Position numbers and translations under genes: made by a program. A stretch of DNA of 64,000 nucleotides, taken from Acetobacter aceti NBRC 14818 (GTDB lineage Bacteria > Pseudomonadota > Alphaproteobacteria > Acetobacterales > Acetobacteraceae). Positions 57,067 through 64,000 of this stretch are shown one piece after another (positions within the stretch are counted from its first letter, which is position 1; each line of letters starts with the position of its first letter). The stretch is taken from positions 186,001 to 250,000 of the forward strand of contig NZ_AP023410.1 of the NCBI RefSeq assembly GCF_000193495.2. The letters run 5' to 3'. The notes beneath the pieces are model-generated. The model was not told where the DNA came from. It ran no database searches and was given only the letters and a program-made list of their open reading frames with translations.

Positions 57067-57156
57067 GGATGGGTGGCCGAGCGGTTGAAGGCACCGGTCT
57101 TGAAAACCGGCGAACGTGCAAGCGTTCCGTGGGTTCGAATCCCACCCCATCCGCCA
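57067..57156 (+). tRNA. tRNA-Ser (anticodon TGA)
   Basis: Complete 90-base class II tRNA with a long variable arm: acceptor GGATGGG (57067-57073) with CCCATCC (57146-57152), anticodon loop CTTGAAA (anticodon TGA), T-loop GTTCGAATC, discriminator G and encoded CCA at 57154-57156. Its 3' end is followed within 75 bases by a truncated integrase gene, the usual arrangement at tRNA attachment sites. Confidence 0.96.
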
Positions 57157-57228: not shown

Positions 57229-57960
57229 TCAGCGCAATTTCTTCACGCTGGTTTCGGCCATCTTTTGCTGTGACGCGGCGCGGGTATATCGGCTGACCTC
57301 TGACAGCGTTTTGTGTCCAGTGATGGCGGCGATTTCATGCGGCGAGCAGCCTGCTTCAGCCAGCCTTCGAGCAACCGCTTTCCTGAGCCCATGAGGCGAA
57401 CAGTTATCCGGCAGCCCTGCTTCTTGGCACCAGTCTTTGAAGACATTGTAGAAACCATTCGCCGAGAGAGCGTTGCCTCGCGCCCCAGTGAGAAACGTCT
57501 TTGAGTTTCCGCTCCATTGGTCGATCTCGATCTGCAGCGTGGGATGAATGGGAATGAACAATTCTGTCTTCGTCTTCTGCTGCCGGACGTAGATCATTCC
57601 ATCGCGGATATTGTCTGGCCCAATCCGCACCGCGTCAGACCGCGTCTGCCCAGTGTAAAGCAGAAGTGCGAATGTGAGCCGTTGATAGGTTCCGGATGGC
57701 CACCTCCTCTCATATGCGTCAATCTCTTCATCGCTCCATGAGTGGATGCCCTGCGAGGCGTTCATTTTTGGAGGCTTAATGCCAACCGTCGCATCATTCT
57801 CCAGCCAGCCGATGCTGATTCCATACTGCGCCAGCAGGCGCAAAATAATAAGTATGCGCGCCCCGGTGGTTGGTGAATCCCTGCCCATGGTAGAGACGAT
57901 CACCCAAGCGTTGCCGGACATTGGTATCGTAATTGCGTTGATTGTGCGGGTTATGTTCAA
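57229..57960 (-). pseudogene. Truncated tyrosine recombinase (integrase) at tRNA-Ser
   Basis: The C-terminal catalytic half is well preserved: Arg in LYTGQTRSDAVRIG, Lys in RQQKTKTELFI, HGLRK, GHKTLSEVSRYTRAA with the catalytic Tyr. Ahead of KPPKMNASQGIHSW the frame reads poorly, and the normal N-terminal DNA-binding domain (about 100-150 more residues) is missing; pieces of it appear in another frame near 57794-57976. It is read toward the tRNA-Ser 3' end and probably belongs to an integrated island. Likely inactive. Confidence 0.75.
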
Positions 57961-57970
57961 ATGGTAATCT

Positions 57971-57985
57971 TTCCATTGTATGGAA
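57971..57985. promoter_or_regulatory. Palindrome upstream of the MocR-type regulator
   Basis: TTCCAT-TGT-ATGGAA is a perfect 15-base palindrome ending ten bases before the regulator ATG. The nine-mer TTGTATGGA (57976-57984) occurs again at 59566-59574 in the nitrilase-operon promoter region. Suggests a common binding site of the regulator. Confidence 0.45.
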
Positions 57986-57995
57986 GCTTCACTCT

Positions 57996-59399
57996 ATGTC
58001 CGCATACCCCTATCTCGCCCGCTGGAAAGCAGAGATCAGTCGAAGCCCGAATGCGATCTACCTGACGATCGCGGACGCACTGGCTCTTTCCATCCGCAAG
58101 GGTGATCTGCGGGAAGGAGACAGGTTGCCGCCACAGCGAACGATTGCGGAGTATCTCGGTACCAATCTGACGACTGTGACCCGAGCGTTCACCGAGGCTC
58201 GGCGGCGCGGCCTGATTGACGCGACGGTGGGCCGGGGCACGTTCGTTCGTGTCGGTGCCGGGGAGAGCCATTGGCGCCATACGGGACCAGCTGTGGTCGA
58301 TCTGACCATGAATCTGCCGCCGATCCCGCAGGATCCGCCTCTGCAACGGATCATCCAGAGTGACATTACCACTATCCTGAAACAGCAGGATCTGAACAGC
58401 CTGATGTCCTATCGGGTAACGGGCGGCACTTTGGAGGAGCGCCAGCTTGGCGCAAAATGGATCGCGCCCGTCATCGGGCAGCGGCGCACGGATGAAATCC
58501 TTGTCTCACCGGGCGCCCAGAGTGCGCTTGCGGCGATTGTCAGCACGCATACCCAGCCCGGCGATGTCATTGTCACCGACCGCATCGCCTATCCCGGTAT
58601 TCGGACCATCGCGGCGCAGTTTGATCTTATTCTGGTCGGTGTGGACAGCGACATGGAAGGCATGATGCCGGATCAGCTTGATCGGGTCTGCGCCGAGCAT
58701 CATCCCCGACTGCTCTACTGCATCCCGACCATCCACAATCCCACCACGGCCACCATGTCCCTGCAACGGCGCAAGGACATCCTGAAGGTCGCCCAGCACC
58801 ATCATCTGCATATTGCTGAAGACGATCCATACAGTCTTCTGATGGACAATCCGCTGCCTGCGTTGGCGGCCCTCGACCATAACCGTGTCAGCTACGTGGC
58901 TACTCTCGCCAAGACACTCAGTCCGGGCCTGCGCACGGCGTATGTCGCCCTGCCCAACGCGGACATGACCCGGCGCGTTACGGCGGCGATCCGGGCTATA
59001 GCTCTCACCAATGCCGGTCTGCTCAGTGCGCTCACGGCACGGTGGATGCAGACAGGGCAGGCGCATACAATTCTGCACGCTATCCAGAAGGAACTGCGTC
59101 TGCGCCAGTCGATTGCCCGGAAGGTGCTTGGGGAAGGGCACTGCATGAACCCCGACGGACCGCATGTCTGGTTAAAACTGCCGGACTGGTGGGGCAGCGC
59201 GGATTTCGTCGCCTATGCCCGCAGGCGCGGTCTGGCGCTGGTGCCCAGCACCGTTTTTGCCATCAGCGGTGAGCCCCCGCAGCGCGCACGGATCGCCTTG
59301 GGCAGTGCACCTGACGCCGCAAGCCTTGAGGAATCCCTGCATGGGGTCCTGTCAGTCCTGCAGCACAAGCGTTCTCCCGGTTTTGCCGATATTGTGTGA
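57996..59399 (+). CDS. MocR/PdxR-like regulator (GntR winged helix fused to aminotransferase fold)
   Basis: 467 residues from ATG at 57996. N-terminal GntR-type helix-turn-helix (about 1-75): ADALALSIRKGDLREGDRLPPQRTIAEYLG, TTVTRAFTEARRRGLI. The C-terminal domain is a type I aminotransferase fold with NPTTATMSLQRR and the PLP lysine Lys306 in TLAKTLSPG. Such proteins sense an amine or PLP-linked ligand. Next to it begins the Nit1C operon on the same strand, so it is the likely activator; the 339-base gap between them contains the operon promoter. An upstream frame extension to 57942 was rejected. Confidence 0.88.
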   Translation: MSAYPYLARWKAEISRSPNAIYLTIADALALSIRKGDLREGDRLPPQRTIAEYLGTNLTTVTRAFTEARRRGLIDATVGRGTFVRVGAGESHWRHTGPAVVDLTMNLPPIPQDPPLQRIIQSDITTILKQQDLNSLMSYRVTGGTLEERQLGAKWIAPVIGQRRTDEILVSPGAQSALAAIVSTHTQPGDVIVTDRIAYPGIRTIAAQFDLILVGVDSDMEGMMPDQLDRVCAEHHPRLLYCIPTIHNPTTATMSLQRRKDILKVAQHHHLHIAEDDPYSLLMDNPLPALAALDHNRVSYVATLAKTLSPGLRTAYVALPNADMTRRVTAAIRAIALTNAGLLSALTARWMQTGQAHTILHAIQKELRLRQSIARKVLGEGHCMNPDGPHVWLKLPDWWGSADFVAYARRRGLALVPSTVFAISGEPPQRARIALGSAPDAASLEESLHGVLSVLQHKRSPGFADIV

Positions 59400-59738
59400 C
59401 CTGACAGCACGATCAGGAATGGTTGGAATCGCCTGATTCCCAGAGGCTGTTCGCGACCGCGCGAAAAACAAAATCGCTTTCGGTTCACGAATGCGTGAAA
59501 TAAATATCCTTATAAAACAAAGAGGTATTCAATTTTCTTCCGATTGTCATGCCCGTTAATGCTTTTTGTATGGATCTGTCTTGGCTGGAAACAGGTCTGT
59601 CACATGCTTTGCGTCGTTTGTCATGCATAGATCAGGCATACAATATTTTGTCTCCCCATCATCCCATGTCACGTTCGTTTCGGCAAAGCGGTCAGCTCCG
59701 GCTTCTCGCTGGAGACCGCAGCACACGGGAGACATACC
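59400..59738. other. Promoter region of the nitrilase operon
   Basis: 339 bases with no coding sequence that I can support. It contains TTGTATGGA at 59566-59574, also found in the palindrome ahead of the regulator gene, and an A+T-rich zone near 59500-59550 that could be a promoter. The first nit gene has a GGAGA ribosome site. Confidence 0.45.
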
Positions 59739-60221
59739 ATGCCGAAAGTCGAACACGCTCCGTACAAAGATGGCGACTGCTTCGTCGATTATGAAAACAA
59801 GGTTTTTGAGGACGTCAAAGCCAAACCCGGCGAAAAAGCCCTTATCACCTTCCACACCGTTGCCAATGAAGGCTCGGTCGGGTTCGTAAATCTTCTGCAG
59901 GCCACTCGTCTGATCCGTAAAGGTTTCGAGACGTCGGTGCTGCTGTATGGGCCGGGTGTCACCCTTGGAGTGCAGCGCGGCTTTCCCCGTCTGGGCGACG
60001 AAGCCTTTCCGGGGCACATGAACTGCAACAAGCAGATCGCGAAAATCCTTGAAGAGGGCGGTAAAGTCTATGCCTGTCGCTTCGCGCTTCAGGCTCTCTA
60101 TGGCTACGGCGAGCAGAACCTGATCCCCGGCATCACGCCGATCAACCCGCAGGACGTGCTGGACATCATCCTGCTGGCCCGGCGCGACAACGCCTTCATC
60201 CTCAATACCTGGACTCTCTGA
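59739..60221 (+). CDS. MSMEG_0572/Sll0783 family nitrogen-starvation protein
   Basis: 160 residues, first gene of the Nit1C-type operon (probably NitB in Pseudomonas fluorescens naming). Sequence [32 protein letters not shown] and [26 protein letters not shown] resemble the DsrE-like fold; a conserved Cys lies in [14 protein letters not shown] and another in [14 protein letters not shown]. No activity is known; the gene is induced in nitrogen starvation in other bacteria. About 24 bases precede the nitrilase start. Confidence 0.9.
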
Positions 60222-60245
60222 AGGCCGAAGGAAGGACCGCACGCC

Positions 60246-61229
60246 ATGTCCCGTATCGTTCGCGCCGCAGCGATCCAGATCAGTCCCGTCCTTGGCGATG
60301 ATGGTCTGGGAACTGCCCGGAAAGTCTGTCAGGCCATCCGCGATGCCGCCGAAAAAAGTGTGAAGCTTGCGGTCTTTCCTGAAACCTTCGTGCCCTATTA
60401 TCCCTATTTCTCATTCATCCAGCCGGCTTTCTGTTTCGGCGGCGAACATCTGGAACTTTACGAGCGCGCCGTCGTCATTCCTGGTCCGGTCACCGACATG
60501 GTCGCCGAAGCCGCGCGTGACACCGGCATGGTCGTCGTGCTGGGTGTAAACGAGCGCGATTTCGGCACGCTTTACAACACGCAGATCATCTTTGATGCGA
60601 CAGGTGAGATCCTTCTCAAACGCCGCAAGATCACGCCCACCTACCATGAGCGGATGGTCTGGGGACAGGGCGATGGCGCAGGGCTGAAAGTGGTGGACAG
60701 TGCCGCCGGTCGTATCGGCGCGCTGGCCTGCTGGGAGCATTACAACCCGCTCGCCCGCTATGCGCTGATGACCCAGCACGAGGAAATCCATTGCGCCCAG
60801 TTCCCCGGTTCGCTGGTTGGGCAGATCTTTGCCGACCAGATGGAAGTTACCATCCGGCATCATGCACTGGAGTCCGGCTGCTTTGTCGTAAACGCCACGG
60901 GCTGGCTGACGGAAGAGCAGATCACGGAGATCGCCCGCGATCCCGCGCTGGAAGGGCCGCTGCGTGGTGGGTGCTTTACGGCCATTGTCTCCCCCGAAGG
61001 GAAACTGCTCGGCACACCGCTGACAGAAGGCGAGGGGATGGTGATTGCCGATCTCGATTTCGCCCTGATCACCAAGCGCAAGCGGATGATGGACTCAGTG
61101 GGCCATTACGCACGCCCCGAGTTGCTGAGTCTGCTTCAGGACCGGCGTCCGGCGCGCACGGTGCATTATGTCGGTGAGCACGGAGCTGTTGAGCCGATTG
61201 GTCCCTCCAATGACGAGGCCAAGCTATGA
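60246..61229 (+). CDS. Nit1C-type nitrilase (Sll0784 family)
   Basis: 327 residues. Carbon-nitrogen hydrolase with the catalytic triad Glu46 ([13 protein letters not shown]), Lys128 ([20 protein letters not shown]) and Cys162 ([13 protein letters not shown]). The Nit1C group (Sll0784) hydrolyses nitriles; in Pseudomonas fluorescens the operon is needed for growth on cyanide as nitrogen source. Whether cyanide is the substrate here is inferred. Its stop overlaps the next start (ATGA), so the nit genes are translationally coupled. Confidence 0.93.
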
Positions 61230-62335
61230 CTGTACCAACACTCGGCACGCTTTCCGGTCGTAAGCTCGTCACGGATCTGCAGTCCTTCGGGCTTCAGATC
61301 GGCGAAGATATTGGCGGCATCGCTCGCAAGGGCGGAGCTGGTCCTTCGGATCACAAGACAATCACCATCGCGGGTCAGACTGTCATGGTTCCGGTCTATA
61401 CATCTGGCGCGCAGCGGTCTCCGTTTCAGGCCAGTCCGCCTGACCAGAGCGGCGTCAGCACGCTGCTGCGTGACGGTCAGACGCTGGGCACAATCCATTT
61501 TCCGGCTGCCCCGCGCTTTTACGGGCTGAGCACGGCAGACGGTATTCCCTACTGGAAGATCGCGCTGTTGCATGGCCGTGACACGTTGGCGACCACGGTG
61601 CACCAGACCTGCATCCGCTACGCCGACCGGCGCACGTCCTGCCAGTTCTGCGCCATTGGCCAGTCACTGGAGGCTGATCGCACCATTGCCTACAAGACGC
61701 CAGCACAGCTGGCCGAGGTCGCCAAAGCCGCCGTGGAACTGGACGGCGTGCGCGACATGGTGCTGACCACCGGCACGCCTAACGTGGTGGACCGGGGTGC
61801 AGCCGTGCTGGCGGACTCTGCCCGCGCCATCAAGGCGGCGGTGGATCTACCGCTTCAGGTGCAATGCGAGCCGCCACGCGATCACGGCTGGTTCCAGCGT
61901 CTGCGCGATGCTGGGGCCGACAGTCTGGGGATGCATCTCGAAGCCGCTACGCAGGCGGTGCGCGAGAAGATCATGCCCGGTAAGGCGACAATCAGCGTCG
62001 ATCGCTATATGGACGCTTTCGCCAGCGCTGTGCCAATCTTCGGACGTGGGCAGGTCAATACCTATATTCTGGCCGGTCTTGGCGACAGCGCCGAGGACAT
62101 TCTGGCGCTGGCCGAACGGCTGATTACGCTGGGGGTGTATCCCTTTGTGGTGCCGTTCGTGCCTATCTCCGGCACCCCGCTGGAAAATCATGTTCCGCCT
62201 TCAGCCGATTTCATGAAATCCGTTCTGGCGCCGCTTGGGCGGATGTTGCGGGAAGCCAGCATGAAATCCACCGACATCCGGGCCGGATGTGGCCGGTGCG
62301 GCGCCTGTTCCTCGCTTTCGGCGTATGAACAATGA
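61226..62335 (+). CDS. MSMEG_0568 family radical SAM protein
   Basis: 369 residues. Iron-sulfur cysteines occur at Cys129, Cys139 and Cys142 ([14 protein letters not shown]), that is C-x9-C-x2-C, rather than the common C-x3-C-x2-C. A second group of cysteines (Cys355, Cys358 and Cys361, [10 protein letters not shown]) lies near the C-terminus and could hold an auxiliary cluster. A TIM-barrel-like body follows ([31 protein letters not shown]). Reaction unknown; belongs to the Nit1C set. ATGA overlaps on both sides. Confidence 0.9.
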
Positions 62336-62895
62336 CCGCGATCCTCGAAGGCGTGGTAGACCGGCCGTTTATTCCGACGGAATATGTCGTGCGTCTTGCC
62401 CGCACGCCATGGGAGTGCGCTGGCTATCACGCGCTCCGTCGCGAAGTGTTCTGTCGTGAGCAGCATGTTTTTACAGAGGATGACCGCGACGCAATCGATG
62501 ATGTCGCCATTCCCATCATCGCCGCCTGCTGTATGGCGGGGATGCCGGACCGGGTTGTGGGAGCGGTGCGCATCCATGAAGCTGAACCCGGCATCTGGCG
62601 TGGTTCCCGTCTGGCTGTGCATGAAGATCACCGCAAGCTGGGGCGGATAGGGGCGGAACTTATCCGGATGGCGGTCAGCACGGCGCATGGGCTTGGGGCC
62701 ACGCGGTTTCTGGCTCAGGTGCAGGAGCAGAACGTGCTGTTCTTCCGCCGCCTGCACTGGAAGAGCCTCGGCGTCGTCACGCTGCATGGTCTGCCGCATC
62801 ACGATATGGAGGCCGATCTGTCACGCTATCCGGCACACGGTCTGGATCAGATCTGGCTGCTGCGTCCGCAGCCCCGGATACGACAGGTGGCGTGA
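62332..62895 (+). CDS. MSMEG_0567/Sll0786 family GNAT N-acetyltransferase
   Basis: 187 residues. An acetyl-CoA-binding GNAT fold: AGYHALRREVFCREQHVF at the start, VVGAVRIHEAE, SRLAVHEDHRKLGRIGAELIRMA (acetyl-CoA loop) and RFLAQVQEQNVLFFRRLHWKS. Its substrate in the Nit1C pathway is unknown. Overlaps the radical SAM stop and the next gene by a few bases. Confidence 0.9.
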   Translation: MTAILEGVVDRPFIPTEYVVRLARTPWECAGYHALRREVFCREQHVFTEDDRDAIDDVAIPIIAACCMAGMPDRVVGAVRIHEAEPGIWRGSRLAVHEDHRKLGRIGAELIRMAVSTAHGLGATRFLAQVQEQNVLFFRRLHWKSLGVVTLHGLPHHDMEADLSRYPAHGLDQIWLLRPQPRIRQVA

Positions 62896-63866
62896 TGGCA
62901 CACGCACTCACCACACTGCTGAACACGCTCCGGAACGGTCGCGCCCTGGTGGGTAAACAGGACATCGCCGAAACTGCGGCAATCCTGAAACCTGTCAGCC
63001 CGGACGTTATCCGGCTTGGCGATGACTGCGCTGCGATCCCTGATGGTGATGGTTATCTCCTGCTGGCCAGCGAGGGCTTTCAGGACAGCTTTGTCCGCTC
63101 AATGCCATGGTTTGCCGGGTATTGTGGTGTGATGGTCAATGTCAGCGACATCGCGGCGATGGGTGGTCGTCCCGTGGCCGTGGTGGATGCGTTGTGGAGC
63201 GATACGTCCGAGGCGGCCGCGTCCATTCTGACCGGTCTGCATGAAGGTGCGCGCACCTATGGCGTGCCGGTTGTTGGCGGACACACCAACATGCGCAGCA
63301 CCCATAACTCGCTGTCGGTGGCGATCCTCGGCCGTGCCCGTCATCTGCTGACCAGCTTCGATGCAAGACCGGGCGAGGTTCTGATCGCCGCCATCGACCT
63401 GCGTGGCCGCTGGCACGACCCGCATCCGTTCTGGGATGCAAGCTCCGCCCTGTGCGGCACCGACGGGGCGGCACGTCTGCGGGGTGATCTCGAACTTCTT
63501 CCGTGCATAGCCGAGGATGGGCTGAGCCGCGCCGCCAAGGACATCAGCATGGCCGGACTGCTGGGCACCGCCCTCATGCTGGCCGAATGTTCGGGCGTGG
63601 GCATGACTATCGCGCTCGATGACATTCCGCGCCCCGATGACGCGCCTATGGCGCGCTGGCTCTCCGCATTCCCCAGCTATGGCTACCTGCTCACGGCGCG
63701 CCCCGAAGATGCCGAAGCGATCATGGCCCGGTTTCGTGGGCGTGATATTGCGGCTTCTGTCATCGGGCAGTGTGACAGCACGCAGCGGCTGGATGTCACA
63801 TGGGCGGACGAGAAAGAAACCTTCTGGGATCTCGCACGGACGCCGCTCATGGGGTTTGCACCATGA
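62895..63866 (+). CDS. AIR synthase-related protein, Sll0787 family
   Basis: 323 residues from ATG at 62895 (GTG at 62892 possible). PurM/SelD/ThiL-like ATP-binding fold: IRLGDDCAAIPDGDGYLLLASEG and VNVSDIAAMGGRPVAVVDAL, GVPVVGGHTN, and the GLLGTALMLAECSGVG C-terminal part. It likely uses ATP to activate a carbonyl or amide for a step in the Nit1C pathway; the product is unknown. Overlaps both neighbours. Confidence 0.9.
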   Translation: MAHALTTLLNTLRNGRALVGKQDIAETAAILKPVSPDVIRLGDDCAAIPDGDGYLLLASEGFQDSFVRSMPWFAGYCGVMVNVSDIAAMGGRPVAVVDALWSDTSEAAASILTGLHEGARTYGVPVVGGHTNMRSTHNSLSVAILGRARHLLTSFDARPGEVLIAAIDLRGRWHDPHPFWDASSALCGTDGAARLRGDLELLPCIAEDGLSRAAKDISMAGLLGTALMLAECSGVGMTIALDDIPRPDDAPMARWLSAFPSYGYLLTARPEDAEAIMARFRGRDIAASVIGQCDSTQRLDVTWADEKETFWDLARTPLMGFAP

Positions 63867-64000
63867 GACTGTACATTGGCATTCTGACTCATTCGACCAA
63901 TCCGCGCGGCGGTGTGGTGCACGGCATGGCTCTGGCGGAAGCCCTGTGTGACGCGGGTCATGACGCAACGCTGATCGCACCGGACGTGATAGGAGCCGGT
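63863..64000 (+). CDS. MSMEG_0565 family glycosyltransferase (5' end only)
   Basis: 46 codons from ATG at 63863 to the window edge, overlapping the AIR gene stop (ATGA). The N-terminus MRLYIGILTHSTNPRGGVVHG, with the nucleotide-sugar loop RGGVVHGMALAEAL, fits GT4-type glycosyltransferases and the Nit1C member usually found here. The rest lies outside. Confidence 0.85.
   Translation, partial: MRLYIGILTHSTNPRGGVVHGMALAEALCDAGHDATLIAPDVIGAG

Follow-up and report, generated by a model that had tools for sequence, protein, structure and literature searches.

Nit1C gene clusters were described in 2005, and in the available literature their chemistry, and their regulation outside Pseudomonas, are still unsettled. 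The Nit1C cluster of Pseudomonas pseudoalcaligenes/oleovorans CECT 5344 (nitA-nitBCDEFGH) was reported to be required for cyanide assimilation, and NitA, encoded on the opposite strand, is a sigma-54-dependent regulator of the Fis family (PMC11049912). Regulators of the MocR type have been connected with cyanide elsewhere. MpaR of Pseudomonas aeruginosa needs cyanide for full function, target expression was abolished in the K314A variant, whose protein was also less abundant, and cyanide-modified pyridoxal 5'-phosphate (PLP) was proposed as the signal by its authors (PMC10790758). In P. pseudoalcaligenes, the cio/nit4 cluster with its divergent mocR gene encodes the nitrilase Nit4 and not Nit1C, for which that strain has NitA, and a MocR mutant expressed the cio/nit4 cluster constitutively, a result cited there as unpublished (PMC8567248). 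Here, we describe a 64,000-nucleotide stretch of the Acetobacter aceti NBRC 14818 genome (the window; G000:C1:186001-250000; genome size 3.69 Mb), in which a mocR gene and nitB, nitC, nitD, nitE and nitF were found, with the remainder of a Nit1C operon beyond the window end. On balance, we lean towards reading the locus as a full Nit1C operon through which nitriles derived from cyanide are assimilated as a nitrogen source, under its own PLP-binding MocR, which would switch on cyanide assimilation.

The Nit1C operon and its MocR gene

The operon was confirmed to be complete and consists of the following genes, with window positions given unless a contig range is stated.

57996..59399, + strand: mocR, MocR-type regulator of 467 amino acids (aa); Pfam GntR helix-turn-helix and aminotransferase class I/II (Aminotran_1_2)
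59739..60221, + strand: nitB, Sll0783/MSMEG_0572 family; TIGR04044, 270.7 bits (cut-off 109.85)
60246..61229, + strand: nitC, Nit6803-family nitrilase; TIGR04048, 568.7 bits (cut-off 502.6)
61226..62335, + strand: nitD, radical SAM protein; TIGR04043, 587.8 bits (cut-off 303.7); variant_rSAM NF045502, 166 (cut-off 125)
62332..62895, + strand: nitE, GNAT N-acetyltransferase; TIGR04045, 231.5 bits (cut-off 68.45)
62892..63866, + strand: nitF, AIR synthase-like protein; TIGR04049, 432.4 bits (cut-off 321.3)
63863..64000, continuing beyond the window to G000:C1:251041, + strand: glycosyltransferase; TIGR04047, over cut-off
G000:C1:251029-251316: NitG; TIGR04042, over cut-off
G000:C1:251331-252578: flavin oxidoreductase; TIGR04046, over cut-off
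G000:C1:252594-254366 (L002:11595-13367): AMP-forming acyl-CoA synthetase; AMP-binding and ACAS_N

All eight Nit1C-family proteins passed the curated cut-offs of their NCBIfam models, including the contiguously encoded NitB, nitrilase, radical SAM, GNAT and AIRS-like proteins, NitG of about 100 aa and flavin oxidoreductase. The Nit1C set proposed by an earlier sequence-only reading was thus borne out. Genes and coordinates were as that reading had described them, with 4-base overlaps at NitC/D, D/E, E/F and F/glycosyltransferase and a gap of 24 bases between NitB and NitC, and its expectation that the cluster runs on past the window was confirmed when extension of the contig revealed the rest of the glycosyltransferase, NitG, the flavin oxidoreductase and the acyl-CoA synthetase. 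Its description of NitB as DsrE-like corresponds to a weak Pfam DsrE match of 17.2 bits, under the cut-off of 22.7. NitC matched the solved nitrilase 3wuy over residues 3-303 (E 1.9e-144) and carries E46, K128 and C162 at the positions of Glu-Lys-Cys, which we take to be the nitrilase triad.

The structural gene families are the same as those of the CECT 5344 cluster, unlike which the window operon has an extra glycosyltransferase and acyl-CoA synthetase. A glycosyltransferase also lies between open reading frame (ORF) 5 (AIRS-like) and ORF 6 (about 100 aa) in the Nit1C clusters of Burkholderia and Rubrivivax; conservation outside the cluster was denied there and the available part of that paper mentions no MocR neighbour, whereas the window has one (Podar 2005; PMC1199592). 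By homology with the Pseudomonas work, the window operon may serve to scavenge cyanide or nitriles. The score profile of the acyl-CoA synthetase resembled that of propionate/acetate-CoA ligases, yet stayed below the cut-offs of those models, and the enzyme could activate the acid freed by the nitrilase. Most window-type loci of the Acetobacteraceae have its gene directly 3' of Nit1C, and 0 of the 22 loci from other families do. In L097 this gene is split by about 1.5 kb, and in L136 (A. okinawensis) mocR and the flavin oxidoreductase gene are each in two frames.

The regulator encoded upstream was identified as a MocR type, in agreement with the sequence-only reading, by its GntR helix-turn-helix fused to an aminotransferase domain and by K306 as the PLP Schiff-base lysine, together with the pocket residues N248, D277, Y279 and R313. 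K306 was kept in 114 of 114 aligned MocRs. The regulator also differs from the Pseudomonas type, as that reading had claimed: CECT 5344 has NitA, and the window a co-directional MocR (PMC11049912). MpaR, with its target ccoN4, is likewise of the MocR type with a PLP lysine, needed in MpaR and present as K306 here; MpaR induces an oxidase subunit gene in dependence on cyanide, and the window MocR adjoins Nit1C. The EhuR (NF052286) and PdxR (NF052282) models have the same architecture and were the best two NCBIfam matches of the window MocR, at 362.9 bits (cut-off 480) and 178.9 bits (cut-off 320), respectively. Assignment as an EhuR or PdxR orthologue was rejected, both scores being below cut-off.

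The ectoine regulator model EhuR, as best match below its cut-off, is one of the points that agree with another account, which we consider rather unlikely: MocR would govern Nit1C but sense an amino-nitrile or amine, for example 3-cyanoalanine as an external aldimine with PLP, instead of cyanide, and the operon would be a nitrile/amine nitrogen route. Known MocR regulons mostly concern PLP, gamma-aminobutyric acid, taurine and ectoine metabolism (PMC5320631), and 3-cyanoalanine induces nit1C proteins in P. pseudoalcaligenes but no cio proteins except HisC (PMC8567248). Sensing of an amine is harder to reconcile with the many related MocRs near respiratory oxidase genes and with the cyanide response of MpaR (PMC10790758).

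MocR genes beside Nit1C and their two lineages

MocR is the usual neighbour of Nit1C among the Pseudomonadota loci examined. NitB over cut-off was found in 33 of 299 Acetobacteraceae genomes, and mocR lay beside nitB in 32 of these (within 1.5 kb in 29 of the 30 of the main set read); in the 33rd, G277, it lay 6 kb upstream. Outside the family, the over-cut-off loci of the same class and phylum had a divergent MocR next to nitB in 21 of 22 cases, the lone exception, L079, carrying a gene resembling sigma-54-dependent regulators in its place. Among named loci (the best 80 of a longer scan, five of them too short to read), MocR was found within 2.4 kb in 53 of the 55 readable Pseudomonadota loci and in the single locus of an unassigned phylum. 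Within this distance, none of the 16 Cyanobacteriota loci that could be read had a MocR, and it was also missing at the single Bacteroidota, Myxococcota and Vulcanimicrobiota loci of the same sample, which is biased to close relatives because only the best 80 matches were taken. The locus counts overlap, part of the named and other loci being the same genome.

The peculiarity of the MocR implied by the sequence-only reading was therefore not upheld, since MocR is usual in Pseudomonadota Nit1C loci, and these cross-taxon loci ruled out a chance neighbour or an oddity of one bacterium. That reading had held that its proposal would fail if close relatives had MocR next to unrelated genes and the nit operon under another regulator. 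The outcome was mixed: MocRs of 57-60% identity do adjoin other genes in eight genomes of the family without Nit1C, yet 32 of the 33 Nit1C-bearing genomes have MocR at nitB. No published MocR-Nit1C link was found in the literature as judged by titles and abstract openings, a check that covered PMC5320631 apart from its supplementary tables, and "nitril" does not occur in the main text of that 2016 paper on MocR regulons. The new elements are the systematic presence of MocR genes beside Nit1C and the presence of MocR relatives beside bd oxidase genes.

Several loci depart from the common arrangements. Gluconacetobacter aggeris (L127/L086) has about 6 kb between mocR and nitB, the operon standing apart from the regulator. 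The MocR of A. indonesiensis (L124) and that of G272 (L096) are divergent and share 57% identity with the window MocR. In Methylomonas (L162, L173) and L074, the Nit1C operon is followed by a distant MocR-like gene (22-24% identity), which may be a third kind of association with MocR.

A MocR tree of 114 rows (a quick tree, no mixture model) placed the Nit1C regulators in two lineages. Thirty-eight common-type Nit1C MocRs, which come from alpha-, beta- and gammaproteobacteria and include three co-directional ones, fell with three others into one 41-row group (Shimodaira-Hasegawa approximate likelihood-ratio test, SH-aLRT, 99), and the window-type MocR sits in a separate group of 31 Acetobacteraceae MocRs (SH-aLRT 98), 17 of which are without Nit1C. 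A single lineage for all 52 Nit1C MocRs was rejected: the log-likelihood was 635 lower when they were held together (approximately unbiased test, p-AU 6.8e-5; quick LG+G4 tree, 112 rows, two long rows dropped). In the NitB-C-D tree, by contrast, the window-type enzymes shared a single group of 16 (SH-aLRT 97) nested among the Pseudomonadota that carry MocR; with them was L099, whose MocR is of the common divergent type. The simplest reading of the sequences is that the Nit1C operon was retained while its MocR was exchanged.

Predicted operator boxes and sigma-54 sites

The following elements were located around mocR and in the mocR-nitB gap of the window.

57976..57982, + strand: operator-like TTGTATG, 20 bases upstream of mocR
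59484..59498, no strand: conserved palindrome TTCACGAATGCGTGA in the mocR-nitB gap, with at most two mismatches in 35/47 co-directional and 0/48 divergent loci
59544..59551, + strand: degenerate copy of the distal box (TTGTCATG), from the alignment of 20 loci
59566..59572, + strand: operator-like box TTGTATG, -173 from nitB
59637..59643, - strand: box in inverted form, CATACAA, at -102 relative to nitB and overlapping a -10-like TACAAT

The 47 co-directional loci include five pairs that are one genome each, and the divergent loci L064 and L168 are the same genome. When 20 co-directional loci were aligned over the mocR-nitB gap, the inverted CATACAA lay over the -10-like TACAAT in all 20; a proximal TTGTATG, 71 bases upstream of the inverted box, and a distal TTGTATG, 22 bases above the proximal one, were exact in 18 and 11 loci, respectively. 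At least two exact boxes precede nitB in 42/47 co-directional loci (one in L108), and a box precedes mocR in 40/47, mostly at -51 to -77 and at -20 in the window. In a first-order Markov test, 10 of 13 co-directional loci had 2-3 copies where 0.01-0.09 were expected and three had none; the divergent L096 had one box and five common-MocR loci none. Two direct boxes plus one inverted box is the commonest form of MocR site (PMC5320631). At L223, a MocR relative without Nit1C, a gene for a small membrane protein is preceded by boxes in the order of the nitB promoter, with spacings of 22 and 70 bases. A gene for a small (about 80 aa) membrane-like protein, with no Pfam family over cut-off, also lies behind a MocR relative in other genomes without Nit1C (L226:9757-9993, L222:9543-9803).

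Genome-wide, the sole exact site of the palindrome TTCACGAATNCGTGA was that before nitB, and 18 sites with at most two mismatches were found, where the reversed pattern used as a control gave 7. A regulon search of the window genome with the paired exact box TTGTATGN{3,33}TTGTATG found no match, the distal box being degenerate in the window strain.

From these sites we infer that MocR would occupy the TTGTATG boxes before nitB, both the direct boxes and the inverted box over the -10 region, as well as the same box before mocR itself. Cyanide, or a nitrile made from cyanide, would then react with PLP on K306 and change the shape of MocR, and the altered MocR would allow transcription of nitBCDEF, the glycosyltransferase gene, nitG and the flavin oxidoreductase and acyl-CoA synthetase genes, so that this strain could use cyanide.

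Divergent loci showed a different promoter. A strict sigma-54 site (TGGCAC-N5-TTGC) was found before nitB in 26/48 of them (0.05 expected), at -52 to -111, and weak NtrC-like sites in 8/48 (1.8 expected). A loose sigma-54 pattern was seen in 2/47 co-directional loci, L089 and L093, both of which also have TTGTATG boxes. Sigma54_DBD was encoded in 28/28 genomes that have either the divergent type or the regulator of L079 and in 15/26 window-type genomes, among them the window genome, and was missing from four same-genus genomes without Nit1C. The sigma-54 and NtrC-like sites, together with the NCBIfam naming of nitB, nitE and NitG as nitrogen starvation proteins, would suit a Nit1C that is chiefly a nitrogen-starvation operon, merely tuned by MocR and with a substrate other than cyanide. 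We regard this as improbable for the window, whose type has lost the sigma-54 site (the 2/47 above being by the loose pattern) and lacks Sigma54_DBD in 11/26 genomes, though the window genome has it.

Cyanide-resistant respiration genes and the distribution of the unit

MocRs of the same subfamily were also found near genes of cyanide-resistant respiration. Cytochrome bd subunit I, DUF983 or CcoG lay within 5 kb in 25 of 40 same-subfamily MocR loci without Nit1C versus 0 of 20 controls (Fisher p 8e-7), and bd subunit I, counted by itself, in 12 of the 40 (p 0.005 versus controls). The 20 control MocRs were hand-chosen from hit lists, outside the subfamily in the tree and with no genome-for-genome matching, and 12 of them lay near genes read as pyridoxal kinase/ThiD-like or PhzF-like. 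Four of the 23 "sister" loci (L303, L304, L305, L311) were placed by similarity, outside the tree, and identity to the DUF983 query ran from 26% to 100%, with many weak matches. The DUF983 gene repeatedly adjoins MocR (L229-L236, L238, L239, L294, L296-L298, L301-L308), in some loci with bd oxidase. Cytochrome oxidases have been noted among MocR targets (PMC5320631).

In at least 9 of about 44 distinct window-type loci, several with short flanks, bd oxidase genes adjoin the Nit1C unit itself, in two arrangements. In five genomes (L105, L106=L116, L107, L109, L113), cydA lies 278 bases past the synthetase gene and in the same orientation; in four Gluconacetobacter genomes (L086=L127, L091=L128, L130, L131), cydA is divergent from mocR at 352-368 bases, and this gap has a box at both sides, one before cydA. 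The cydA of L109 runs off the sequence stretch. Complete cydA frames were 477 or 465 aa long versus 514 (bd-II) and 522 (bd-I) model positions. A cyanide-insensitive bd type without the long Q-loop has been described (PMC5322542), and the short frames fit this type without proving it. In some relatives, the same MocR switch would cover the genes of a cyanide-insensitive bd oxidase too.

The bd oxidase, CcoG and DUF983 neighbours would suit any inhibitor of heme-copper oxidases, and MocR might instead be a general sensor of redox state or of inhibited respiration, responding to nitric oxide, sulfide or low oxygen, Nit1C having been captured by it. We give this very little weight, knowing of no role of Nit1C with nitric oxide or sulfide, which counts against it. 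Nit1C has moreover been tied to cyanide in Pseudomonas (PMC11049912).

A number of observations weigh against control of cyanide assimilation by a cyanide-sensing MocR. Among the sites, exact boxes are missing upstream of nitB at four co-directional loci that branch early (L087, L092, L100 and L101), where only variants, TTGTCTG among them, occur, 7/47 co-directional loci have no box before mocR, and the nitB of the window is preceded by only one exact direct box plus the inverted one. Among the oxidase genes, no exact box was found before cydA in the five genomes with cydAB downstream, the cydA frame of L106=L116 is interrupted, and the three cydA genes of the window genome all lie away from the operon, the 500 bases upstream of the cydA matches containing no exact box. 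The nearest MocRs without Nit1C face a cluster of acyl-CoA dehydrogenase and luciferase-type monooxygenase genes in 6/8 loci (L223, L225-L228, L241; MocR identity 57-58%), for which we know of no cyanide role. CydA, CcoG and DUF983 were beside MocR in 0/56 loci, with 1.5 kb flanks, from the genus (79 genomes, 30 loci) and family (69 genomes, 26 loci) of G844, genomes taken as Pseudomonas-like; 30 of the 56 loci were the best of a longer list. The MocR tree holds neither MpaR nor the cio-cluster MocR, neither of which is placed by it.

More widely, and with less assurance than for the window itself, it may tentatively be proposed that the large MocR subfamily is a PLP-based cyanide sensor across Pseudomonadota for bd oxidase and cyanide assimilation. 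Nit1C would have been wired to it twice, first with a divergent MocR and a sigma-54 promoter and then in Acetobacteraceae, a second lineage of MocR taking over and the sigma-54 promoter yielding to a TTGTATG-box promoter, with L089 and L093, which have both kinds of site, as intermediates.

Two further features lie before mocR, outside the operon.

57067..57156, + strand: tRNA-Ser(tga), ARAGORN, adjoining the integrase fragment
57229..57960, - strand: tyrosine integrase, 243 aa; Pfam PF00589, 8.2e-23

The integrase is apparently cut at its N-terminal side, because its reading frame begins within the mocR upstream region. In a comparison with 54 further Acetobacteraceae loci, of which some had short flanks, no tyrosine integrase turned up near mocR, and no att repeats of the tRNA-Ser end, the mark of a complete island, were found by exact match within 40 kb. 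Among the matches listed, the nearest named NitB locus was that of Acetobacter estunensis AV380 (99%), which fits the acetic acid bacterium supposed by the sequence-only reading. DNA identity between this strain and the window genome is 93% over a stretch that opens 47 bases upstream of mocR and closes about 490 bases beyond the synthetase gene, and the match stops outside the unit, with none in the 2.9 kb before it nor in the stretch after it over the DNA compared. nitB was present in 4 of 8 sampled same-genus genomes. The Nit1C unit is patchy and has probably moved in the past. Downstream of it in the window genome, two reading frames at L002:18155-19702 are transposase-like by appearance.

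Acetic acid bacteria occur on fruits and flowers and may come into contact with cyanogenic plants. The pairing of MocR with Nit1C, together with MocR relatives at cyanide-resistant respiration genes, suggests a cyanide-sensing switch. A dedicated MocR with a predicted operator would offer a direct handle on it, as the protein can be purified, a PLP adduct could be observed and the regulon may be read from the boxes. The finding connects the MpaR proposal, in which PLP is the means of cyanide sensing, with a gene family widespread in acetic acid bacteria.

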